From contig JAJRQB010000029.1 in the NCBI GenBank assembly GCA_024280485.1, forward strand, positions 1-55,029: a stretch of 55,029 nucleotides of DNA, in the 5' to 3' direction. Position numbers and translations under genes: made by a program. The notes under the pieces are model-generated. The model was not told where the DNA came from. It ran no database searches and saw nothing but the letters and a program-made list of their open reading frames with translations. Position 1 is the stretch's first letter, and the number at the start of each line of letters is the position of its first letter. This stretch comes from Deltaproteobacteria bacterium. GTDB taxonomy: Bacteria; Desulfobacterota; Desulfuromonadia; Desulfuromonadales; Geopsychrobacteraceae. This document shows positions 1,111 through 11,574 of the stretch, piece after piece.

Positions 1111-2838
1111 TTAAAAATTCCAGAACTCGTCGATCTCTTCCCCGCTAAAATCCCAAACGGCATTGTGAGGAGGAATCGGCTCACTGAAAAACTCCGGCAG
1201 GCGATCGTCCTTGTTGGTAAAGCCTGCCGCCAGATTAAATTCGCGCTCAAGAAGAAGAACTTTTTTCCCTAGCGCAGCGACATCTTCACCGGCCAACGAT
1301 TCTCCGTAGCGGGCGCTGAGCATTGTGACCAGGGCGGGAAAGGCCTCGGGATCATCGGAGAGCGCCAACGCAACAAAGAGGCACAGACCGGTACTGTCGA
1401 CTGCGGCAGTCACTATCTGCAATTCCCGCGATAGCTCTATCTGTCCCTCCTTGCTCAGCGGATTTACCAGCCCGCCGATCCCCATGATATTCGAAGCCAC
1501 AGCGTATCCTGCGGTATGATCAGCCCCCATGGGAGTTGTACAGTAGGTGATGCCGATCCCCTTGATCGCCCGCGGATCATAGGCCGGAATCGCCTGCCCC
1601 TTGACCACCGGCACCCGGGTCACGCCATAAGCCTTGCCGACTGAAGCCGCACCATTGCCGAGAATGCGTCCCAAAGGAGTGCCGGAACCGATCTCCCTGA
1701 TCAGACTGACGGCGGCATCGCCGTCACCAAAAGGTAATGCACCTCCCTCCATCGCCACTCCGACAGCAACCACTGTTTCGATGGAATCGACGCCGATATC
1801 ATCCATAAGCTGATCAGCCAGTGCGATACAATCCAGATCCTCCACGCCGCTATGGGCGCCGAGCCCCCAGATGGTTTCGTATTCAAATCCTGAAGTCAGA
1901 TAGTTGCCATCCTTGTCGTTATAGACCTGGGAGCACTGGATGATACAGCCGGGATGACAGCCATGACGGGGTTTTCCCCCTCTCTCCAGAATACGCTCGC
2001 GCATGGTCTCGCCGGAGAAGTTATCGTGCCCCGCGCATTGCCCGTAACGGAAGTTTCTGGTCGGCAACCCACCCGCCTCATTAATGACATTGACCAGAAC
2101 GTTCGTTCCGAAATTCGGCAGACCTTCCCCGCTCACCGGATGCCCCAGCAATGCTTTGGAAAAAGCCCGGGAGGCACTTTTGAACTGCTCCGGATCAGCG
2201 ATTTCCACCCCGGGGCCATCAGTGGCGTCCAGGGTGATGCATTTAATCCTCTTTGCGCCCATAACGGCACCGAGACCGCCGCGGCCGAAACTGCGAATTT
2301 TCCCTTCCGGATCGCAAACAGAAATATTGGCCGCAGACATTTTCATTTCACCGGCGCTGCCGATACTGAGCACCCCAACCCGTTTGCCCATTCTCAGCCT
2401 GAGGGTCTCAATCACCGCGAAATTGCCCTGGCCAACCAGTTCGGTATCTTCACTGATCTCAACATTATCCTTGGTGATGTGCAAACGGTAGAAGCCGTCA
2501 CCAGTCGGTTGTCCCTCAATGATAAGCGCCCTGATCCCCATCCGTGCGTATAGCTGACCGGCTGTCCCGCCGACGTTGCTCTCCTTGATACCACCGGTCA
2601 GTGGGCTTTTGGCCCCGGCCGACATACGCCCCGAATTGGCAGCAGGTGTGCCAGTCAATAATCCCGGGGCAAAAACCAGTTTATTGTGCTCGCCAAGCGG
2701 ATGACAGGTCGGCGGCACTTCCTCGGCGACGATGGTCGAGGTCAGCCCCCGTCCTCCGAGTCCCGCCCATTTGGCGGGAAACTCTTCTATGCTCACCGAC
2801 AGATTTGACATATTGACGCGAAATACTTCTCCGGGCAT
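1111..2838 (-). CDS. Aldehyde:ferredoxin oxidoreductase (tungsten AOR family)
   Basis: 575 aa, the usual length for AOR. The [4Fe-4S] ligands appear as C294-x3-C298-x3-C302 (HGCHPGCIIQC) with the distant fourth ligand at C486 (STGLC). The N-terminal RVNMS...GGRGL segment and AGAKSPLTGG fit the bis-pterin binding domain. AORs oxidise aldehydes to carboxylates in the cytoplasm with ferredoxin as acceptor, or run in reverse. The gene is the last in the amine dehydrogenase run, 75 nt behind the protease gene, so a role in disposing of aldehydes made by amine oxidation is an attractive inference. The start is supported by AAAGGAT upstream. A MoaD-like protein (18528-18752), MoaA and MOSC elsewhere in the window could serve its cofactor. 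Confidence 0.93.
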   Translation of the reverse strand: MPGEVFRVNMSNLSVSIEEFPAKWAGLGGRGLTSTIVAEEVPPTCHPLGEHNKLVFAPGLLTGTPAANSGRMSAGAKSPLTGGIKESNVGGTAGQLYARMGIRALIIEGQPTGDGFYRLHITKDNVEISEDTELVGQGNFAVIETLRLRMGKRVGVLSIGSAGEMKMSAANISVCDPEGKIRSFGRGGLGAVMGAKRIKCITLDATDGPGVEIADPEQFKSASRAFSKALLGHPVSGEGLPNFGTNVLVNVINEAGGLPTRNFRYGQCAGHDNFSGETMRERILERGGKPRHGCHPGCIIQCSQVYNDKDGNYLTSGFEYETIWGLGAHSGVEDLDCIALADQLMDDIGVDSIETVVAVGVAMEGGALPFGDGDAAVSLIREIGSGTPLGRILGNGAASVGKAYGVTRVPVVKGQAIPAYDPRAIKGIGITYCTTPMGADHTAGYAVASNIMGIGGLVNPLSKEGQIELSRELQIVTAAVDSTGLCLFVALALSDDPEAFPALVTMLSARYGESLAGEDVAALGKKVLLLEREFNLAAGFTNKDDRLPEFFSEPIPPHNAVWDFSGEEIDEFWNF

Positions 2839-2913: not shown

Positions 2914-3597
2914 TCAAAGGCAAAGGGATAAGCTATCCTCTTCGCCCAGGCTGGTATTCAGCGCCAAATCGAGACTGACCCGAGCACAGGCAAAAGAATT
3001 GCCCCACAGGTTCGCCGCAGGTGGCAGGCCTTTTAGATCGCGCGGCCAACCTGAGGTCTGGTGTGAATAAGAACGCTGCGGATCAATCTCAATCTCCCCC
3101 GGATCAAGATGCTCAGCGGAGATCACACCAACCACACCGGCCAAGGCTGCAGGGAGCAGACCCGGCTTCTGTGGATGACCAGCCGCCACCAGCACAGATC
3201 CTGCCTCCAGAGCAGCTCGGCAGGCCTGCTCAAGAACATCGCTTCCTGGACCGGGAGGCATTCCCAAGCTGAGATTAATAATCTGGCACCCTTCAGCAGC
3301 GGCCCTCAGAAGAGCCCGGGCCACCAACGATGGATAGGAATTCAACTCCCCATCAAAGACCCGCAGTACAAAGAGTTCGGCATCGGGCAACCCTTGACGC
3401 AAAATTCCGGCGACCGCCGTACCGTGGCCGACAATGTCCCGAAAATCTTCATCCTCCTGAATTCTCCCTTGAGAGTCCGAAAAAATCCGCATACCACTCA
3501 CCTGCCCGCGAACATGGGAATGCCAGGGGTTCACTCCAGTATCGATAATCCCAATCCGAAGTGTCCTTTCGGCTGCGGAGTTCAACTGCTGATTCAT
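2914..3597 (-). CDS. qhpE: Subtilisin-like serine protease of the QHNDH cluster (QhpE-like)
   Basis: 227 aa without a signal peptide, so cytoplasmic. The catalytic triad is visible: D19 (IIDTG), H58 (GHGTAVAG) and S201 (GNSFACAR). The oxyanion-hole region reads AAGH at residues 138-141, where subtilases normally have Asn. In characterised QHNDH systems QhpE removes the leader of the gamma subunit after cross-linking; the gene position between the exporter and AOR fits this role. The ATG overlaps the stop of the ABC transporter gene by 4 nt, indicating translational coupling. Assignment by family plus context. Confidence 0.86.
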   Translation of the reverse strand: MNQQLNSAAERTLRIGIIDTGVNPWHSHVRGQVSGMRIFSDSQGRIQEDEDFRDIVGHGTAVAGILRQGLPDAELFVLRVFDGELNSYPSLVARALLRAAAEGCQIINLSLGMPPGPGSDVLEQACRAALEAGSVLVAAGHPQKPGLLPAALAGVVGVISAEHLDPGEIEIDPQRSYSHQTSGWPRDLKGLPPAANLWGNSFACARVSLDLALNTSLGEEDSLSLCL

Positions 3598-5342
3598 GCC
3601 GATCTCCGTTCTACTTCAAGAGTATGGATGTTGTGTGCTGGTTGAACAATTGGTTGAATTGCAGCTTTTTTATCTGCTCCAGTTTCACTGAGAGTGGGTA
3701 CCCCCAGAGCCGTAACAAGCCCCTTTTCGTCAACCTCACGAAGATGCCCGTTCTGCAGTAGATAAAGATGATCGAACTCGTCCAATCCCCCGAGCCGATG
3801 CGTTATCATCAAAATGATCTGCTGCTGGAAATGGTTCCAGAGGTTGCGCCGTACCAGAGCCTCGGTTTCGGGATCCAGCGCCGAAAAGGCTTCGTCAAAA
3901 ACCAGAATATCGGGGTGCTTCAGAACCAGCCGGGCAATTCCCAACCTCTGTCGCTGCCCATCAGAGAGCACCAGGCCCCGACCGCCGATGATCGTCTGAT
4001 AGCCCTGCGGGAGTTCTTCAACAAAATCGTGAACCGCAGCAATACGCGCCGCAGCAACGACAGTATCAAAACTGGCCTGAGGATTACCGTAGCGTAGGTT
4101 CTCCTCGACCGATGCATGCAGCAGAAAGGGCTCGCTCCCCGCATAACCGATGCTCCTTCCGCCCAATAAAACTTGTCCCTGTTGTGCCCGCCGCAGGCCG
4201 AAAAGAATCTGCACAAGAGTCGACTTCCCCGCTCCAGACGTACCGAAAAGAGCCACCTGTTCCCCGGCAGAGATCTGAAGAGTTACGCCATGCAACAGCT
4301 CTGGGTTTCCCGGATAAGTAAAGGAGACCTCCTTGATGAGGAGGCCAGCCTCGCAGTGATCATCCATCTTCGTCTGGCCACAGAGTTCGCCATCATCATC
4401 GAGGATCTCTGTGACCCGTTCCAGACTCACACGCACCTCCTGAAGATTCCGCACCAACCCCAACAGTCCTCGCGCAGGTCCGTACAGACGGCCCTGATAA
4501 AGGATGAAGGCGACAAAGGTGCCCAAGCTGATTTCGCCCCGCTCCAATAACCCACCCCCCAAGAGGTAGATCCAGGCCAGATTTGCGGTCAGGGTGATGC
4601 CGGGCAGGCCTGAAGCCGCCGCATCCAGCACCTGAAACTTCAGCAGTTTGCTGACCAGATCGGCATTATGTCGGCCGAAGCGCTGCTGCTCCTCTTGCTG
4701 AGTGGCATGCAAGCGTATAGCGCGCAAGGCCCCCAGCCGTTCCGAAAGAAAGTGCGAGAGCCCGGCCATGACCTCCCGAATGCCCCTGGTCCCAGATTCA
4801 ATCGGGCCCCGAAAGGCTGCGGTAATCACCAGTGCGATGGCAATCCCCAGAAAACTCCAAAGCGCCAGACTACTGGAGAGGTTGAATAGAATCGCCGCCG
4901 CCACGCTCAGAAAGATCAGGTTTTGAATAAAACCGAGAGCTCCATCAACCAACAGAGTCTGAATCTTGGAGATGTCGGTACCAAACCTGCTCAGCAGATC
5001 GCCGTGGCGAAAACGCTCAAGCGCTGTCAGTGGCGCATTAATACAGTGCGCAAAAATTCGCTCCCTGATCTCGACCAGCACCGCCGCCGAGAGTTTGGTA
5101 TGCACCACCCGGGTCAGCGTCCCCAGTAACAGATCAGCTACGGCCAACCCGAGCAGAGCTGCGGCAATGAGCGGCACGCCGGAAAAATCTCTCCGCTCCG
5201 CCACGGCATCGATAAAGCTCTTGCCGATCAGTGGCGTCGCCAGAGATGTTGCCGACCCGGCCAAGCCAAGAAGAAATACTGCCGTAAGCAATCCCTTCTT
5301 ACCCCGCAAGTGGCGTGTGAATTGTTTAACCGCTTTCAGCAT
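3594..5342 (-). CDS. qhpF: ABC transporter, fused membrane and ATPase domains (QhpF-like exporter)
   Basis: 582 aa half-transporter: about six membrane segments in residues 15-300, then an ATPase domain with Walker A GTSGAGKST (367-375), signature LSDGQ (459-463, Asp in place of the usual Gly), Walker B ILVFDE (479-484) and switch His at ITHR (515). In QHNDH clusters this transporter is required to bring the modified gamma subunit to the periplasm. The start overlaps the end of the upstream U32 gene (ATGCTGA), and its stop overlaps the protease start, so the three genes are translated as a block. An ordinary lipid or multidrug exporter is the alternative by sequence alone; context decides. 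Confidence 0.88.
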   Translation of the reverse strand: MLKAVKQFTRHLRGKKGLLTAVFLLGLAGSATSLATPLIGKSFIDAVAERRDFSGVPLIAAALLGLAVADLLLGTLTRVVHTKLSAAVLVEIRERIFAHCINAPLTALERFRHGDLLSRFGTDISKIQTLLVDGALGFIQNLIFLSVAAAILFNLSSSLALWSFLGIAIALVITAAFRGPIESGTRGIREVMAGLSHFLSERLGALRAIRLHATQQEEQQRFGRHNADLVSKLLKFQVLDAAASGLPGITLTANLAWIYLLGGGLLERGEISLGTFVAFILYQGRLYGPARGLLGLVRNLQEVRVSLERVTEILDDDGELCGQTKMDDHCEAGLLIKEVSFTYPGNPELLHGVTLQISAGEQVALFGTSGAGKSTLVQILFGLRRAQQGQVLLGGRSIGYAGSEPFLLHASVEENLRYGNPQASFDTVVAAARIAAVHDFVEELPQGYQTIIGGRGLVLSDGQRQRLGIARLVLKHPDILVFDEAFSALDPETEALVRRNLWNHFQQQIILMITHRLGGLDEFDHLYLLQNGHLREVDEKGLVTALGVPTLSETGADKKAAIQPIVQPAHNIHTLEVERRSA

Positions 5343-6304
5343 TTGACCCCCTCTGGTTCCTGACCGGCCCAGACATCGGGATAGTAGCAGAGGTGCCCTC
5401 CCTGACAGAGCGAGGCGCCACCACGCAGTTCAATCACCGCTACGCGGATCTCCTCAGGACCGGCACCGGCCCGCGCCAATTTTAACGCCATGGCGGCCAG
5501 ACGCACCGAGGCCTCTTTCCTGGGCAGCGAAGCTTCGCGCCCCACCACCTTGAGGCTGCTCATGCCGATTTGCAGCAAGCGCGGCAGAGCACACAAGCCG
5601 CAAGGGCCGACCGGATAGCCGCGATTGGTCTTGCAACCGCAATGGTTGAGGGTCCACTTCCAAAATTCATAGTTCTCCAGGGTCTGCCCCGAGACACCCT
5701 GTGTTTCTTCGCCATCGTTCAGGCAGAAGGCCCCAGCGGCATGGGTGGTCGCACACAGCCCTTCCTCAAAGACACAGCCATCGTTCAACAAGAAGGCTTC
5801 GAACTCCAACCCGGGAACCAGGCTCGCTTCAATTTCTGCCAGAGTCAGATGGCGCGGCAGAATGATCCGGGAGACTCCCAGTTCCTGATAGAAAGCTGCG
5901 GAGCCAGGATTGGTGCAGGTCGCCAGACTAGAAAGATGAATTTTAGCGGCCAGCCCGGCTTCTGCCAGGGTGAGCAACAGGTCGAGGTCGGCGACGATCA
6001 GACCGGAGGCCCCCGCGTCAAGCAGCGCAGTGCTGAACTCGGTGAGCATCTCCAGGGCCTCGGCCGGGTAATAGGGCGCGTTGAGAGCCACAAAAACGGG
6101 GCGGCCCGAAGCACGCGCCAGAATCCGCTTGAAATCGGTATGATCAGCAACGCCAGCCGAACCTGGCGAACGCCGGTTGATCCAACTCTGACTGAAACGC
6201 TCCTGCCAATCTGGTGGGGTTATTCCACAGTAGAACTCCTCCGCCCCAGCCGCCAGCAAAGTCTCCACCTCTGAAGAATCTCTTAAGGGAGCAAGCAGTT
6301 TCAT
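5336..6304 (-). CDS. U32-family protein, UbiU-like; candidate O2-independent hydroxylase for CTQ
   Basis: 322 aa with the U32 fold signature: N-terminal LLAPLRDSSEVETLLAAGAEEFYCG and a conserved middle (LAEIEAS...LNDGC). Cys residues at 177, 184, 194 and 235/238 give the spacing expected for a [4Fe-4S] site; C177-x6-C184 equals the UbiU pair. UbiU with UbiV hydroxylates the ubiquinone ring without O2, and other U32 members (RlhA, TrhP) hydroxylate RNA bases. The gene overlaps its UbiV-like partner by 4 nt and sits inside the amine dehydrogenase operon where aerobic clusters keep the flavin monooxygenase qhpG. I infer that the pair hydroxylates the gamma-subunit Trp anaerobically. Family annotations as peptidase U32 should not be read as proof of proteolysis. 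Confidence 0.82.
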   Translation of the reverse strand: MKLLAPLRDSSEVETLLAAGAEEFYCGITPPDWQERFSQSWINRRSPGSAGVADHTDFKRILARASGRPVFVALNAPYYPAEALEMLTEFSTALLDAGASGLIVADLDLLLTLAEAGLAAKIHLSSLATCTNPGSAAFYQELGVSRIILPRHLTLAEIEASLVPGLEFEAFLLNDGCVFEEGLCATTHAAGAFCLNDGEETQGVSGQTLENYEFWKWTLNHCGCKTNRGYPVGPCGLCALPRLLQIGMSSLKVVGREASLPRKEASVRLAAMALKLARAGAGPEEIRVAVIELRGGASLCQGGHLCYYPDVWAGQEPEGVKC

Positions 6305-7125
6305 GGTAGCGGCCTTTGGTGGATGACGATTCGGTCAGTCCGGGCCAGATGGGCTTCGACCGCGGTTTGGGTAGCCTCATAGAAGATAGTGTTCCCCGCC
6401 CGCCAGAGGGGCAGACTGAGATCTGCCCGTTCCTCCGCGTGCCAGCGTCCACGGCAGGGCGCCGGACAGGGGTTGCTCAGCCACTTGGCAAAATTCTTAT
6501 CATCCTGCTGTGTATCGGCCTTGAGCAGGCAGTTGCGCCCCGAAGCCGCGAACACGTAAGGGAGGTGCAGCACCCGCTGTAGATTGCTCGTCCCATCGCC
6601 AAGATAGCTCCCTTCCAGATCGGCATCGGTCTCCAGCCCGGCAACCGCGTAGCGCAACAACAGGGTTCGGATTGCCCCGCCTCTGGACGTCTGCCGGGGT
6701 TGTGCTTCCAGCGGCTGCACGGCAAGACGCGGATCACGCAACGCACGGTTGATCAACCGGCCGGCCTGAAGTTTGGTCGCAGGGTGTTCGTTGTGCAGCA
6801 TCCGCAGCACCCCCAAGTCGTTGAAAACCAGGGTCGGAGCCCAGCCCCGGTTTTCGAGGTCGGTGACCAGCTTCAGCACCCGGCTAAGGCCGTCCGCCCT
6901 GACCACCGGAGTCAACAGCAACGCTTCCAGGTCGGCTTCTTTGGCCAGCGCGCAGAAATTTTCCGCTTCGGCGACTGTCGGGAGCAGATCCTGACAGAAC
7001 TCGGAGCCGAAATAGACCGCCCTAAGAGGTCCTGCTGGCAGCAGCTTCTGCCAGCTCTCTGAACACCACTGGCGTGGGTCTTCGGGAAGTGGTCCGGGGT
7101 TCGCTAGACGTACCGCGTATTCCAT
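6301..7125 (-). CDS. U32-family protein, UbiV-like; partner of the UbiU-like protein
   Basis: 274 aa. It has the four-Cys pattern of UbiV: one near the N-terminus in YFGSEFC (C44), then C199 (SGRNC), C220 and C224 (NPCPAPC), likely binding a [4Fe-4S] cluster. UbiV works as a heterodimer with UbiU. Here the stop overlaps the UbiU-like start by 4 nt, so a complex made at 1:1 ratio is likely. The segment LPYVFAASGRNCLLKAD resembles the conserved U32 region. The N-terminal MEYAVRLANPGPLPED and residues 62-145 are less conserved. A hairpin (7145-7176) separates it from qhpB. Role as in the neighbour: inferred O2-independent hydroxylation in CTQ formation. Confidence 0.8.
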   Translation of the reverse strand: MEYAVRLANPGPLPEDPRQWCSESWQKLLPAGPLRAVYFGSEFCQDLLPTVAEAENFCALAKEADLEALLLTPVVRADGLSRVLKLVTDLENRGWAPTLVFNDLGVLRMLHNEHPATKLQAGRLINRALRDPRLAVQPLEAQPRQTSRGGAIRTLLLRYAVAGLETDADLEGSYLGDGTSNLQRVLHLPYVFAASGRNCLLKADTQQDDKNFAKWLSNPCPAPCRGRWHAEERADLSLPLWRAGNTIFYEATQTAVEAHLARTDRIVIHQRPLP

Positions 7126-7182: not shown

Positions 7183-8193
7183 CTATAGGGTCAACCTGCG
7201 CATCCCCATGCCATCGGTTTCCATCTGCAATATTTTGATTGGCTGCATGGTTGCGACATCGAAGACCGTAACCGTCGATCCCCCTGCTCCGGCATAAATC
7301 TTCTTGCCGTCAGTGGTCGGTATGACGCCGTAACAAGTGCCTTCTGGAATCGGCACGATCTTGGTGTAGGTCTTGGTCTTCAGATCGATGACCGCGACCT
7401 CATCCATAACCGCGTAAGCCTGGGTCTTGTCCGGGGAGTAGATTGCATTGTAAGCAAAAGGCGGTTCACCCTGCAGCATGGTCATGTCGACCTTGCCGCT
7501 CTGGGTGTCGATGCTCAGCAGCCCCATCCCTTCGGCAGAGTAATAGGGAGAGAGCCAGACCCCGTCGTTCTCTGCGGTGTAGTGCCAGAGCGCCAGGATA
7601 TTGATCCCCTTATCAAACATGGAAATAGTATCAACGATCCTCATCTGCTTCTTTGAGATGTCGAGGGTATAAATGTCTTGCCCGATGGCATAGAGTTTGG
7701 TGTCATTTTCGACCAGAGACAAGCTAACAACACCGAAGGGGACCTCGACGCTACGCAGGATCTTGCCGGTGTCGAGGTTAATCTGCAGGACCTGCGGATG
7801 GCCTATGACCACCTCGCCAGCTTCGGTCCGGCGGGAAAAGACATTGACGTAGCCGGTCTTGCCATCCTGGCTGACGGCGAGCCCATAGATGAAGCGTTCC
7901 CAGCCTTTTTCTTCGACCTTAATATTGTTGACGATCTGCATCTTCTGCAAATCAAGTTTTTGAATGTTTCTGCGCGTGCCGGTTACATAGAGAAACTTCT
8001 TGTCGGCAGAAAAAACCGAATCGCGGGCAGCCCCCTTGATCGGGATGTTGATTATGGCATCGGTGTCGGCGTCGATGACCTGGATCATCTCGTACCCCAT
8101 GTGGAATATCAGGTCCTTGGCTTCAACCCGATCACCGACCGTCATACTACAAAGCAGTAGTGCTGCAATAAAAGCGTACTTTTTGATATTCAT
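7183..8193 (-). CDS. qhpB: Quinohemoprotein amine dehydrogenase beta subunit
   Basis: 336 aa. The start at 8193 (MNIKKYAFIAALLLC) is chosen over a longer frame because GGAG lies 6 nt upstream and it gives a clean signal peptide ending near VEA-KDL. The mature part is built of repeated beta-propeller blades typical of YVTN/QHNDH-beta proteins (for example YVTGTRRNIQKLDLQKM, GYVNVFSRR, KIYAGAGGSTVTVFDV). In the enzyme the beta subunit is a seven-bladed periplasmic propeller that packs against the CTQ-bearing gamma subunit and forms part of the active site. It follows qhpC by 73 nt. Confidence 0.92.
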   Translation of the reverse strand: MNIKKYAFIAALLLCSMTVGDRVEAKDLIFHMGYEMIQVIDADTDAIINIPIKGAARDSVFSADKKFLYVTGTRRNIQKLDLQKMQIVNNIKVEEKGWERFIYGLAVSQDGKTGYVNVFSRRTEAGEVVIGHPQVLQINLDTGKILRSVEVPFGVVSLSLVENDTKLYAIGQDIYTLDISKKQMRIVDTISMFDKGINILALWHYTAENDGVWLSPYYSAEGMGLLSIDTQSGKVDMTMLQGEPPFAYNAIYSPDKTQAYAVMDEVAVIDLKTKTYTKIVPIPEGTCYGVIPTTDGKKIYAGAGGSTVTVFDVATMQPIKILQMETDGMGMRRLTL

Positions 8194-8266
8194 GAATGAC
8201 TCCTGTTTTTCACTAATGAAGGGATTGTTCGCCGCCGGTCTAACCCCGGCTAACTTCCGCACCTCC

Positions 8267-8596
8267 CTATTTCAGGGTGCGCCAGTCCCGGGCGATATTG
8301 GGGCAGGCCACATCAAAATCCGGATTATTGGTGAGTCCATCCGGGACCTGTGCCGGCCACCAGCAATCCCCGGCGCAACCGTGAAAGTCCCGCGCTGACG
8401 AAAGGCAGTTCCCGATCGGCGTAGCCGGGCGCGGGTTGGTTTCCCAGCCGGTATCAAAGATGGTGGTACAACCGACCGGCATATTCAGAGGATCTCCTTC
8501 AGCGAGAGCCTCCACCGATTTCTTTTCCCCCTCGGACAACGCTTCTATGGCCCGGGCTTTCTGGTTCAGGGCCTCGATCCGTCTTTTCTTATCCAT
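8267..8596 (-). CDS. qhpC: Quinohemoprotein amine dehydrogenase gamma subunit precursor (CTQ peptide)
   Basis: 109 aa. All residues known to be cross-linked in the family are present with exact spacing: C43-E52, C64-D70 and C78-D86 for the three Cys-to-acid thioethers, and C74-W80 for cysteine tryptophylquinone (CTQ), within FHGCAGDCWWPAQVPD. By homology the mature chain begins six residues before C43, so residues 1-36 form a leader, rich in Glu, Lys and Ala, lacking hydrophobic signal features; export would need the ABC transporter. C98 is an extra Cys near the tail not assigned to any known bridge. Substrate of the radical SAM enzyme QhpD next door, the protease and, by inference, the U32 pair. 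Confidence 0.96.
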   Translation of the reverse strand: MDKKRRIEALNQKARAIEALSEGEKKSVEALAEGDPLNMPVGCTTIFDTGWETNPRPATPIGNCLSSARDFHGCAGDCWWPAQVPDGLTNNPDFDVACPNIARDWRTLK

Positions 8597-8629: not shown

Positions 8630-10021
8630 TTAACAGGCGGCCCGTTTCTCCAAGCGCTCAAGCAAAGAGTCAGCACCTGTACTACGTAATTCAGCATAAA
8701 GTTCGATACCGAGTTGCAGCCAACTACGGATAAAATAACAGCTGCTTCCCGGAGGCAGACCCAGCTTGCTCTCTCTGAGGTGGTTTTCGTAATGACAGCC
8801 CCCAGTACAGAGAGTTCTGGCCCAGCAGTCGGAACACATCTGTTCTTTGCCTGCGGTAAGGATGGCCAGACTCGACTCGATTTTCTGCATATCGGCTCCA
8901 GTATCGAGATCGCCGACCTGAAACATTTCCTCCCCGGCCAGTCTGTGACAGGGGAAAAAGTTCCCCTCGGCATCGACCGCCAGGTAGCCGAACCCGGCTC
9001 CACAGGCCACAGATTTCGTCTGTCCCAGATGAAGCCGCCCCAGCAGGTCAAGAATGTTACTGAACGGAAGGATCCGTCCCTTAACGGCCTCCTCCTTAAA
9101 GCGGTGCGTCATTGCGGCGAACCCCTTGAGGAGAATCTCTTCCTGCACAAGACTGGGAAGCAGTTCATTGGTAATCGGGCTGGCCGGAGCAATTCCGACC
9201 TCATGAAACCCAAGACCGCTCAGGTGATCGAGAACCTCTTCGATCCGTCCCCACTGGTCCGGGGTCAAGGTTACCCGGGCGGCAACCGGTGCCGGGCTGT
9301 TCTTAAGTAGCCTTTTCAGGTTTGGCAGAATTCTGGCGTAGCTGCCCTGTCCGGCAGCGTCAGGCCGATTGGCATCGTGCAGATCTGGCGGGCCATCGAG
9401 GCTGACTGAAACCGCCACACGATTTTGCTGTAAAAAGCTGATGATCTTTGGATTTAAGAGCGTGCCATTGGTGGTCAAAGACATTTGGACCCTTTTACCG
9501 GTCTCTTGACCTCTGAGCTCGGCCTCCTCGACCGCCGCTTCGATCGCCGGCATGTTGAGTAGCGGTTCGCCACCAAACAAAACCAGAGTGACCAGCTCGC
9601 GGTCGCCCGCCTCCTGAATCAGGAGACGGACGGCTTTGCGGGCCATTTGCGGAGTGAGCAGGCGCCGATCTCCTCCGTAAGCTCCCCCTTCGGCGTAACA
9701 GTAGGTGCAGCGCAGGTTACAATCCTGAGCCACTTCCAGAACCATTGTCACCAATGGAATCCCTTGTGGGTGCGGAAGTTCGGGAGCAGGCCTTTTCGCC
9801 TCCTCTTCCGTCAACAGAATCCTGGCGTCTCGCAACGCGGCCAGAATTTCCCGATCTTGCTGAACGGTTTCGTTGAGATTCAGTGACTGCTGCGTACCCA
9901 GGCGCTGAATAACCTCACGAGTCTCCGCGTCGATGGAGAACAGACTTGCATGATCCACCCCGAAGAGGATCGCGCTATCGCCGACAGCAAAAACTCTATG
10001 ATCTGCCCACAGGTGATTCAT
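8630..10021 (-). CDS. qhpD: Radical SAM/SPASM enzyme QhpD, thioether-forming QHNDH maturase
   Basis: 463 aa. The radical SAM cluster motif is C101-x3-C105-x2-C108 (CNLRCTYC). The C-terminal SPASM region supplies further Cys ligands at 340, 358, 396, 399, 405, 409 and 428, for two auxiliary [4Fe-4S] clusters. GGEP (150-153) marks the SAM-binding loop. In the family QhpD makes the three Cys-to-Asp/Glu thioether bonds in QhpC, acting processively in the cytoplasm. The N-terminal 90 residues may hold the substrate-recognition part. It lies 2 nt from qhpA and 33 nt from qhpC, tightly operonic. Confidence 0.95.
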   Translation of the reverse strand: MNHLWADHRVFAVGDSAILFGVDHASLFSIDAETREVIQRLGTQQSLNLNETVQQDREILAALRDARILLTEEEAKRPAPELPHPQGIPLVTMVLEVAQDCNLRCTYCYAEGGAYGGDRRLLTPQMARKAVRLLIQEAGDRELVTLVLFGGEPLLNMPAIEAAVEEAELRGQETGKRVQMSLTTNGTLLNPKIISFLQQNRVAVSVSLDGPPDLHDANRPDAAGQGSYARILPNLKRLLKNSPAPVAARVTLTPDQWGRIEEVLDHLSGLGFHEVGIAPASPITNELLPSLVQEEILLKGFAAMTHRFKEEAVKGRILPFSNILDLLGRLHLGQTKSVACGAGFGYLAVDAEGNFFPCHRLAGEEMFQVGDLDTGADMQKIESSLAILTAGKEQMCSDCWARTLCTGGCHYENHLRESKLGLPPGSSCYFIRSWLQLGIELYAELRSTGADSLLERLEKRAAC

Positions 10022-10023
10022 AG

Positions 10024-11574
10024 CTATTTTATCCTTGGGATATAATCGGGTTCAGTGACCACCAGTCTGGCCTCAGCCGCGTAACTCCGATCGCCACGCT
10101 TATACTCAGCGACGACCTTGACGAGGCCGATCCCTTCAGCGTGAAATTCTCTCACCTCTATTGGTCCGTAATCCGAGGTAGGGAGATAGGTCCCAGCGGC
10201 CCCAATCTCTCCCAACCAGACCAGGTCATCATCCCCGGGCCGGGTCACCAGTTCGCTCAAGCTAAATTTAGCGGCAACCGGTCCCAAAGCGATATCATCC
10301 CCTTTTGATCCCTTGGAATAGGCGATGGCATCGAACTGCACCCCTTCAGCGGGGAAGTGCTGCCCACCATCGACCCTGGCACGCCCCAACTCGGGAGTGA
10401 TGGCGATATAGTCGACCTGCGAGACCAAGTTCAGGCTACCGGCGGCCAGCCCTTTGACACTGATCCTGGTTTTTGCCGAACCTTTGCCGCGATACAGGAC
10501 TTGCAGTTCAATCGCATTGGCGCCCTGCTGTTTTGCTGAGATCACCTTCAAGGCGCCACCGGAAACACTGACATCAGCTACTGTGATCTTCGGCAGTTTT
10601 GTCCCCTCCAGCATCAGAGTGGTTGTTTCACCACTGACCAGATAGCTGGGACTCATCTTGAGGACCTGTGCCTTGCCGTTTAACTGATACCAGGTGCTGG
10701 TGGATGTGCGGAAATTGGGGGCGGGGAAACTATACTGACCACGTAAAACGCCATCAGCAAAGCTGAAAGCTCCCAAGGTTGTTGAGCCGTTATGCTGTGT
10801 ATTGATACGGAATGCACTTCCGCCGTAGAGAGATGCATCGCCGAAGAAACTTTCGCTGTAACCATCGGCATACTGCCAGGAGCCAGCCACATCATAGTCT
10901 CCGTGTGCGGCGTTTTTGATGGTTGCAGTTCCGCGGTAATTCCCCTTACCAGGCTCATACCCCAGAATCAACCAGGCACCAGCGGGAGAATTCTTAGGCG
11001 CTTTCAGGGCTTTGCCATAGGGCTGGCTCTTGGCCAGCTGTGCCAACACGGCATCGGCCTCAGGAATCCATTTCATCTCGCGCATCTGGCCGATAACGGT
11101 CGGAGTCATATAGAGATGGAAGTCGCGAATTTTTGCCCAGGCCGACTCGGTCATTCGATAAGAAAGAATTTTACCCGCACTGTGACAACGCACACAGGTA
11201 ACAAACAGCTTCTCCGGAGCACCGGCCTGGGGTGTCTCCACATTCTGCGGGTTGTTGTACAGATCGAGATATTTAACCTGCTCGGCTTCCTCGACGGTAA
11301 GTCCCTGGGTCGCGCTAAGCTCCTTAATAAGCGGGTTCATCTCACCCGACTCCAGATCCATCCCGTGCAGTCGCGCCATCCGATCGACGATGACCACCCA
11401 CTCCTCAGGCGTGGTACGCAGTTCTTCAACCCTGGAGATCTTCCCTCCTACGGGCACATGACAGCCGGTACATTTTTCCCACACGAGCGACTTCTTCGAG
11501 AAAGCCATCGCATTGGGGGATATGATCGCGATTGAGACAATCAGTACTGCAAAAAACAACAATGGTCTTAACAT
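10024..11574 (-). CDS. qhpA: Quinohemoprotein amine dehydrogenase alpha subunit (diheme cytochrome c)
   Basis: 516 aa with signal peptide (residues 1-24, ending AMA). Two c-type heme sites, CTGCH (35-39) and CVRCH (127-131), sit in the N-terminal domain; the long C-terminal part is beta-rich, as in the known alpha subunit (beta-barrel/Ig-like domains). The subunit passes electrons from CTQ to periplasmic carriers. AGGAGGA precedes the ATG. The upstream neighbour is the porin gene (105-nt gap with no clear promoter), so the whole cluster is likely transcribed from the control region at 13000-13370. Heme attachment implies periplasmic cytochrome maturation elsewhere. Confidence 0.95.
   Translation of the reverse strand: MLRPLLFFAVLIVSIAIISPNAMAFSKKSLVWEKCTGCHVPVGGKISRVEELRTTPEEWVVIVDRMARLHGMDLESGEMNPLIKELSATQGLTVEEAEQVKYLDLYNNPQNVETPQAGAPEKLFVTCVRCHSAGKILSYRMTESAWAKIRDFHLYMTPTVIGQMREMKWIPEADAVLAQLAKSQPYGKALKAPKNSPAGAWLILGYEPGKGNYRGTATIKNAAHGDYDVAGSWQYADGYSESFFGDASLYGGSAFRINTQHNGSTTLGAFSFADGVLRGQYSFPAPNFRTSTSTWYQLNGKAQVLKMSPSYLVSGETTTLMLEGTKLPKITVADVSVSGGALKVISAKQQGANAIELQVLYRGKGSAKTRISVKGLAAGSLNLVSQVDYIAITPELGRARVDGGQHFPAEGVQFDAIAYSKGSKGDDIALGPVAAKFSLSELVTRPGDDDLVWLGEIGAAGTYLPTSDYGPIEVREFHAEGIGLVKVVAEYKRGDRSYAAEARLVVTEPDYIPRIK

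Follow-up and report, generated by a model that had tools for sequence, protein, structure and literature searches.

Our analysis concerns a 55,029-nucleotide stretch of DNA (hereafter the window; contig JAJRQB010000029.1 of GenBank assembly GCA_024280485.1) from a deltaproteobacterium of the family Geopsychrobacteraceae, which carries an operon (qhp) for quinohemoprotein amine dehydrogenase (QHNDH). In this operon two adjacent genes related to the U32 family, here called U32a (UbiU-like) and U32b (UbiV-like), stand where other clusters have QhpG, the flavoprotein that hydroxylates the tryptophan precursor of the cysteine tryptophylquinone (CTQ) cofactor in the gamma subunit QhpC. The replacement of QhpG by this pair is well supported, both by the mutual exclusion of the two enzymes and by their exchange on the tree of the amine dehydrogenase itself. 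That the pair replaces QhpG and also hydroxylates Trp80 of QhpC is, in our judgment, very likely.

Mutual exclusion and exchange of QhpG and the U32 pair

The source genome (4.1 Mb, 96% complete) appears to belong to an anaerobe, judging from its nearest named relatives in the Desulfuromonadales. An earlier note on this DNA had described an amine dehydrogenase cluster of qhpA, D, C, B, F and E without a flavin monooxygenase gene, and family searches confirmed these assignments. No QhpG was found in the source genome, where the best match to the QhpG profile scored 37.5 bits and covered N-terminal model positions 16-149 of 461; the QhpG seed (L009) had been checked against PDB and matches 7CTQ with E 3e-153. 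A scan with QhpC gave at least 539 relatives. The 80 loci most similar to the window were retained from these and, with three plasmid loci and the window itself, made up the 84 loci that were read. U32b is present in 35 of these and QhpG in 31, both are present in none, and 18 have neither. The earlier note had named, as a finding that would speak against it, the combination of a QhpG at another place of the genome with U32 genes that other clusters do not conserve; the recurrence of U32b, never with QhpG, and the result for the source genome are the opposite of this.

The survey for mutual exclusion that the same note had suggested was extended to whole genomes. Among 77 QhpC-bearing genomes, U32b alone was found in 34, QhpG alone in 37, both in none and neither in six. 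None of the 28 genomes whose qhp cluster includes QhpG gave U32b, even at E 1e-6. The other 49 genomes (from 50 loci) comprise 34 with U32b, nine with QhpG, none with both and six with neither, U32b being called at E ≤1e-40, the level at which the nine QhpG genomes were also tested for it, and QhpG at 230 bits or more; many of the U32b matches in this set are rows of the search profile, while none of the nine QhpG matches is. Two of the 34 U32b genomes have flavoprotein matches of 81 bits (G403) and 97 bits (G422/G077), which were not counted as QhpG; these, and a match of 87 bits in G001, were taken as other flavoproteins because QhpG scores at least 230 bits. The single lower QhpG score, 89 bits in G441, belongs to a second piece of the gene, the main piece in the same genome scoring 230.7. 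The Fisher value for the exclusion is 4.7e-16, but it ignores kinship, and we therefore relied on the tree test instead.

On the QhpA tree (76 rows), the 71 labelled rows need two changes between the pair and QhpG, and five pair-type rows (98*) are nested in a set (99*) in which the remaining 31 rows are of the QhpG type. Two label changes are again needed on the joined QhpA, QhpD and QhpB alignment of 33 loci, and a tree constrained to group all 16 pair-type rows is worse by 137.6 log units (p-AU of the approximately unbiased test, 3.6e-74), so that a single pair clade is rejected. The distribution of QhpG and the pair is thus one of exchange, not of descent alone. In all 33 loci holding both U32a and U32b, the two genes lie next to each other on the same strand, with a gap of at most 135 bases in 32 of them and of 776 bases in L028, and they occupy at least three positions in the operon, namely after qhpB, after qhpE and before qhpA. 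QhpD, QhpE and QhpF occur in both types of cluster, with gaps in some loci (no QhpD was found in L034), as does the diheme subunit QhpA. Since QhpD, QhpE and QhpF stay and QhpG is exchanged, it is simplest to suppose that the step of QhpG is performed by the pair.

The distribution was also followed in less biased samples of whole taxa, whose centre genomes (G000, G399 and G437) were chosen, not drawn. In the phylum sample (395 genomes, including the source genome) QhpC occurs in nine genomes; the same nine have U32b beside qhp genes, and QhpG reaches 230 bits in none of them (G077 has two matches of 97 bits). Judging from identical match positions, three genomes of this sample, G077, G223 and G296, are also part of the QhpC-based whole-genome set. 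The pair is found in a tenth genome, G001, which has no QhpC, on a stretch of 2.7 kb free of qhp genes. Among 385 Alphaproteobacteria, QhpC was found in seven; five of these have QhpG, U32b is present only in the chosen centre G437, and G784, whose qhp contig is 5.4 kb long, has neither. Among 369 Gammaproteobacteria, QhpC was found in the chosen centre G399 and in G1187. Pair-bearing records include Burkholderiales, Acetobacteraceae and Terriglobia, and so reach beyond strict anaerobes.

As a separate observation, a gene beside the qhp operon of Paracoccus seriniphilus annotated as pilus assembly protein CpaD (L007:3515-4768) is related to QhpG, sharing 30% identity with the seed that was checked against PDB.

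The two U32-type proteins and the proposed substrate QhpC

The earlier note had placed two overlapping genes at 5336-7125, and both open reading frames (ORFs) are present, with an overlap of 4 bases. The five cysteines that it had listed for the UbiU-like gene (C177, C184, C194, C235 and C238) are likewise all there and invariant in 23 of 23 aligned rows, as are C300 and C306. U32a is a member of the U32 family by Pfam (PF01136, 99.7 bits against a cut-off of 22.4), and its profile aligns with UbiU by hhalign with probability 99.9, placing C177 and C184 on UbiU C169 and C176, which are reported as cluster ligands (PMC6747719). We propose C177, C184, C194 and C235 as iron-sulfur ligands of U32a. 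The protein stays far below the UbiU equivalog model NF047963 (60.8 bits, cut-off 440). Its AlphaFold2 model (mean predicted local distance difference test score, pLDDT, 85.4; predicted template-modelling score, pTM, 0.86) is a TIM barrel; in a Foldseek search other TIM barrels lead, and the solved U32 structure 5D88 lies outside the 50 rows shown. Apart from the operon pair, the source genome has a UbiV-like gene (G000:C27:5616-6281) and a UbiU-like gene (G000:C162:11925-12476) on two other contigs, where they are not adjacent.

For U32b no match was obtained among Pfam models, the PF01136 cut-off included, or NCBIfam models. The UbiV-like cysteine pattern claimed for it stands as far as the residues go, C44, C199, C220 and C224 being present and invariant in 24 of 24 aligned rows, but its likeness to UbiV is only remote. 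Direct hhalign comparison of the qhp U32b profile with UbiV is weak (probability 14, E 0.0019). When the profile was widened with two related groups, the probability was 68 to UbiV, 92 to U32a and 64 to UbiU, with control profiles of QhpD, QhpG and QhpB at 7 or less, and the four cysteines fell on UbiV C39, C180, C193 and C197; they are proposed as the iron-sulfur ligands of this subunit. The AlphaFold2 model of U32b (pLDDT 82.5, pTM 0.83) has 5D88 as its best Foldseek match (E 4.2e-4), the sole one at E ≤0.001, and its VIA-align superposition on 5D88 (Z 12.5) is tied with those on other TIM barrels. PDB sequence searches found no U32 structure, save 5D88 at E 0.079 from the U32a profile. The fold of both subunits is a predicted one.

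QhpC of the window exceeds the cut-off of its family model NF037958 and has all the CTQ and thioether residues. With the literature pairing of these residues placed by alignment, we take the CTQ to form from C74 and W80, and the thioethers to join C43 with E52, C64 with D70 and C78 with D86. All 36 pair-type and all 40 QhpG-type QhpC proteins retain residues C43, E52, C64, D70, C74, C78, W79 and W80, while D86 is retained in 35 of the former and in all of the latter, the type of some loci being set from the whole-genome results. With these residues unchanged, the tryptophan presumably still needs two oxygens.

Proposed pathway and alternative explanations

In the pathway that we propose, U32a and U32b would form an iron-sulfur heterodimer, built like UbiU-UbiV, in place of the O2-dependent QhpG. 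QhpD would first make the three Cys-to-Asp/Glu thioethers in QhpC; next, probably while QhpD holds the leader, the pair would hydroxylate Trp80, the CTQ precursor, in an O2-independent reaction, probably twice, at C7 and C6, to give 6,7-dihydroxy-Trp, the oxygen donor being probably prephenate. QhpE would then cut the leader, QhpF would export the product, and closure to CTQ would proceed with the QhpA hemes. We infer the O2-independent hydroxylation of Trp80 from the substitution together with U32 family chemistry; the iron-sulfur clusters, the heterodimer, its substrate, the hydroxylated positions, the oxygen donor and the order of the steps are likewise putative. QhpG is reported to insert both CTQ oxygens from O2 (PMC7876137), and the characterised U32 oxidases are described as hydroxylating rings or bases without O2 (PMC11574389, PMC6747719), with prephenate as the reported donor for ubiquinone and the implied one for RNA (PMC11574389, PMC10470549). 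For UbiU-UbiV, action at more than one position of the same ring has been considered possible (PMC6747719), and a double hydroxylation of Trp80 at adjacent positions would be in keeping with this. A variant of this pathway, in which the pair hydroxylates Trp80 once and the QhpA hemes add the second oxygen, as MauG does for tryptophan tryptophylquinone, is unlikely. MauG, LodB and GoxB are reported to act on 7-hydroxy-Trp (PMC7876137), and a diheme QhpA is found in both types of cluster; on the other hand, the replaced QhpG is described as adding both oxygens (PMC7876137), and the possible service of UbiU-UbiV at several ring positions (PMC6747719) also speaks for a double hydroxylation.

Several observations weigh against the proposed role of the pair. 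At the thresholds used, neither enzyme was found in six of the 77 genomes (those of L017, L039, L051, L054, L056 and L074) or in G784; all of the six except L056 have their qhp genes on contigs shorter than 12 kb, so that missing sequence is possible in five. G1187 (L189) has an A-D-C-B-F-E cluster with neither enzyme within 19.9 kb, the rest of its genome not having been searched, and may point to a third way to hydroxylate the tryptophan or to an unlinked gene. The counts come from the best-80 sample and include U32b matches to the profile's own rows, and are therefore not to be read as proportions. Taken alone, the two related U32b-like families reach probabilities of only 6 and 2 to UbiV. 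In the models, the cysteine-bearing residues 181-195 of U32a and 196-206 of U32b have pLDDT below 50, so that no cluster site is readable from them. Finally, the qhp-linked U32a proteins form a single clade with weak support (64/87), and the qhp-linked U32b proteins, which had been expected to form one clade, are not separated on the tree from a second, non-qhp family of Desulfobacterota.

The clusters with neither enzyme also favour an explanation in which the pair acts on QhpC otherwise, as a chaperone, in electron delivery to QhpD or in an extra modification, while the oxygens come from, for instance, periplasmic heme chemistry or an unlinked enzyme. We hold this to be rather improbable, for it is QhpG that is exchanged while QhpD, QhpE and QhpF stay, the exchange is repeated on the tree, and O2-independent hydroxylation is what characterised U32 oxidases are reported to do (PMC11574389). 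It is far less credible that the two genes are simply the UbiU-UbiV of ubiquinone synthesis, lying in the operon by chance, as the family resemblance of U32a to UbiU might suggest. Such a neighbourhood can arise by chance, as shown by the QhpG locus L052, where ordinary UbiU and UbiV genes lie on the same contig about 3 kb before qhpG. Nevertheless, this explanation is largely refuted by the linkage: U32b is tied to qhp genes in distant bacteria and was not found in 28 of 28 QhpG genomes, and G399 has, besides its qhp pair (L014), a UbiV of its own (43% identical to E. coli UbiV) with an adjacent UbiU. Moreover, in the U32 trees, from which the L099 and L139 rows were left out as copies and in which long branches join the groups, UbiU and UbiV form separate clades (supports 100/99 and 100/100) and the pair lies outside both. 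Nor is there much to be said for a protease acting on QhpC or its leader, an equally implausible role suggested by the family name Peptidase U32 only: QhpE is present in the same clusters, and four invariant cysteines per subunit fit iron-sulfur binding as in UbiU-UbiV. Hydroxylation of Trp80 by the pair in the place of QhpG thus stays the preferred explanation. We also regard as likely the wider proposal that O2-dependent and O2-independent hydroxylases were exchanged at least twice in the qhp operon, in one direction or the other, and that U32 iron-sulfur heterodimers modify proteins, the pair using an organic oxygen donor to dihydroxylate a peptidyl tryptophan, whereby CTQ would be made in anoxic cells.

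The operon, related systems and significance

The operon lies on the minus strand in the order A, D, C, B, U32b, U32a, F, E, as given by ORFs and family searches (see table). Besides the overlap within the pair, U32a and qhpF overlap by 7 bases and qhpF and qhpE by 4, an arrangement suggestive of translational coupling within a single unit. QhpC alone exceeds its NCBIfam cut-off; QhpA falls short by 1.5 bits, and QhpB, QhpD and QhpE stay under theirs, although each of these four models is the best-named match of its own protein. Such scores below the equivalog cut-offs point to a diverged QHNDH branch. On the QhpA tree the window lies closest to Geopsychrobacter sp. (L011) and to other metagenome-assembled genomes of deltaproteobacteria or Desulfuromonadales.

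Genes of the qhp operon in the window, all on the minus strand
Gene product	Coordinates	Strand	Evidence
QhpE, subtilisin-like leader protease	2914..3597	-	NF049966 132.5 bits, cut-off 165
QhpF, ABC exporter	3594..5342	-	PF00664, PF00005
U32a, UbiU-like	5336..6304	-	ORF, 322 aa; PF01136 E=1.9e-28
U32b, UbiV-like	6301..7125	-	ORF, 274 aa; without Pfam or NCBIfam match
QhpB, beta-propeller subunit	7183..8262	-	TIGR03907 (QH_beta) 83 bits, below cut-off 223.2
QhpC, gamma subunit of QHNDH, proposed substrate	8267..8596	-	NF037958 (QH_gamma) 124.5 bits, cut-off 50
QhpD, radical SAM/SPASM thioether-forming maturase	8630..10021	-	TIGR03906 342.5 bits, below equivalog cut-off 453
QhpA, diheme alpha subunit	10024..11574	-	TIGR03908 (QH_alpha) 272.8 bits, cut-off 274.35; PF09098, PF09100, PF14930

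The operon is followed by an aldehyde ferredoxin oxidoreductase gene (window 1111-2838), with a counterpart of nearly the same first residues at L010:15786-17510; in L008, a cluster with QhpG, an aldehyde dehydrogenase is present instead. Oxidation of the aldehyde product would fit such a neighbour. In clusters of the Desulfobacteraceae type a cytochrome gene stands between qhpB and U32b (L028:7702-8307, L033:7615-8169); that of L028 belongs to the NapC/NirT family by Pfam, that of L033 is similar by its first residues, and a cytochrome of this type perhaps links the amine dehydrogenase to the quinone pool. Candidatus Binatia/Binatota (L041, L042, L044, L062 and L083) have, behind a qhpA-D-C-B set, a second qhpA-C-B set with no qhpD of its own.

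Among known systems, the peptidyl tryptophan dihydroxylase QhpG (7CTQ) shares with the pair the genetic slot and, as we suppose, the substrate and product; it differs in being a flavoprotein that takes both oxygens from O2, is unrelated to the pair in sequence, and was not found together with it in any of the 77 genomes searched whole. UbiU-UbiV is alike in its two adjacent U32-type genes, in having one cysteine set of each kind and in the O2-independent ring hydroxylation proposed for the pair, but acts on a lipid ring and forms distinct clades; the cysteine spacing is CX6CX9CX40C in U32a against CX6CX16CX38C in UbiU, and CXnCX20CX3C in U32b against CXnCX12CX3C in UbiV. RlhA and TrhP also belong to the U32 family, with a reported prephenate-dependent hydroxylation of an aromatic base (PMC11574389), whereas they are longer single proteins with an RNA substrate and sit with UbiU on the U32a tree, apart from the qhp-linked proteins. 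Closest to the pair on the trees is the second Desulfobacterota family of U32a- and U32b-like proteins, which has the same four U32b cysteines in nine of nine cases; in contrast to the qhp pair, there is no QhpC in its phylum-sample genomes. This second pair lies beside lipB-lipA in five of ten genomes examined, some of them only as short stretches (L136:4985-8395; L106/L131, L107, L116, L138), and several of these genomes have a second U32b-like copy elsewhere.

A literature search found no prior report tying U32 proteins to a tryptophylquinone or an amine dehydrogenase, most subscription papers and all bioRxiv preprints lying outside its coverage, and passages of a 2024 review mention no substrates of the characterised U32 oxidases other than ubiquinone and RNA (PMC11574389). 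If the proposed role is true, QhpC would be the first known protein substrate of U32 hydroxylases. Because the substrates of UbiU-UbiV are described as highly hydrophobic and not commercial (PMC6747719), a gene-encoded substrate would be of use for studying the poorly understood O2-independent hydroxylation. A function is also suggested for U32b, a protein family that Pfam and NCBIfam do not recognise. Finally, the role of the pair in the maturation of QhpC would explain how bacteria make the CTQ of QHNDH without O2.

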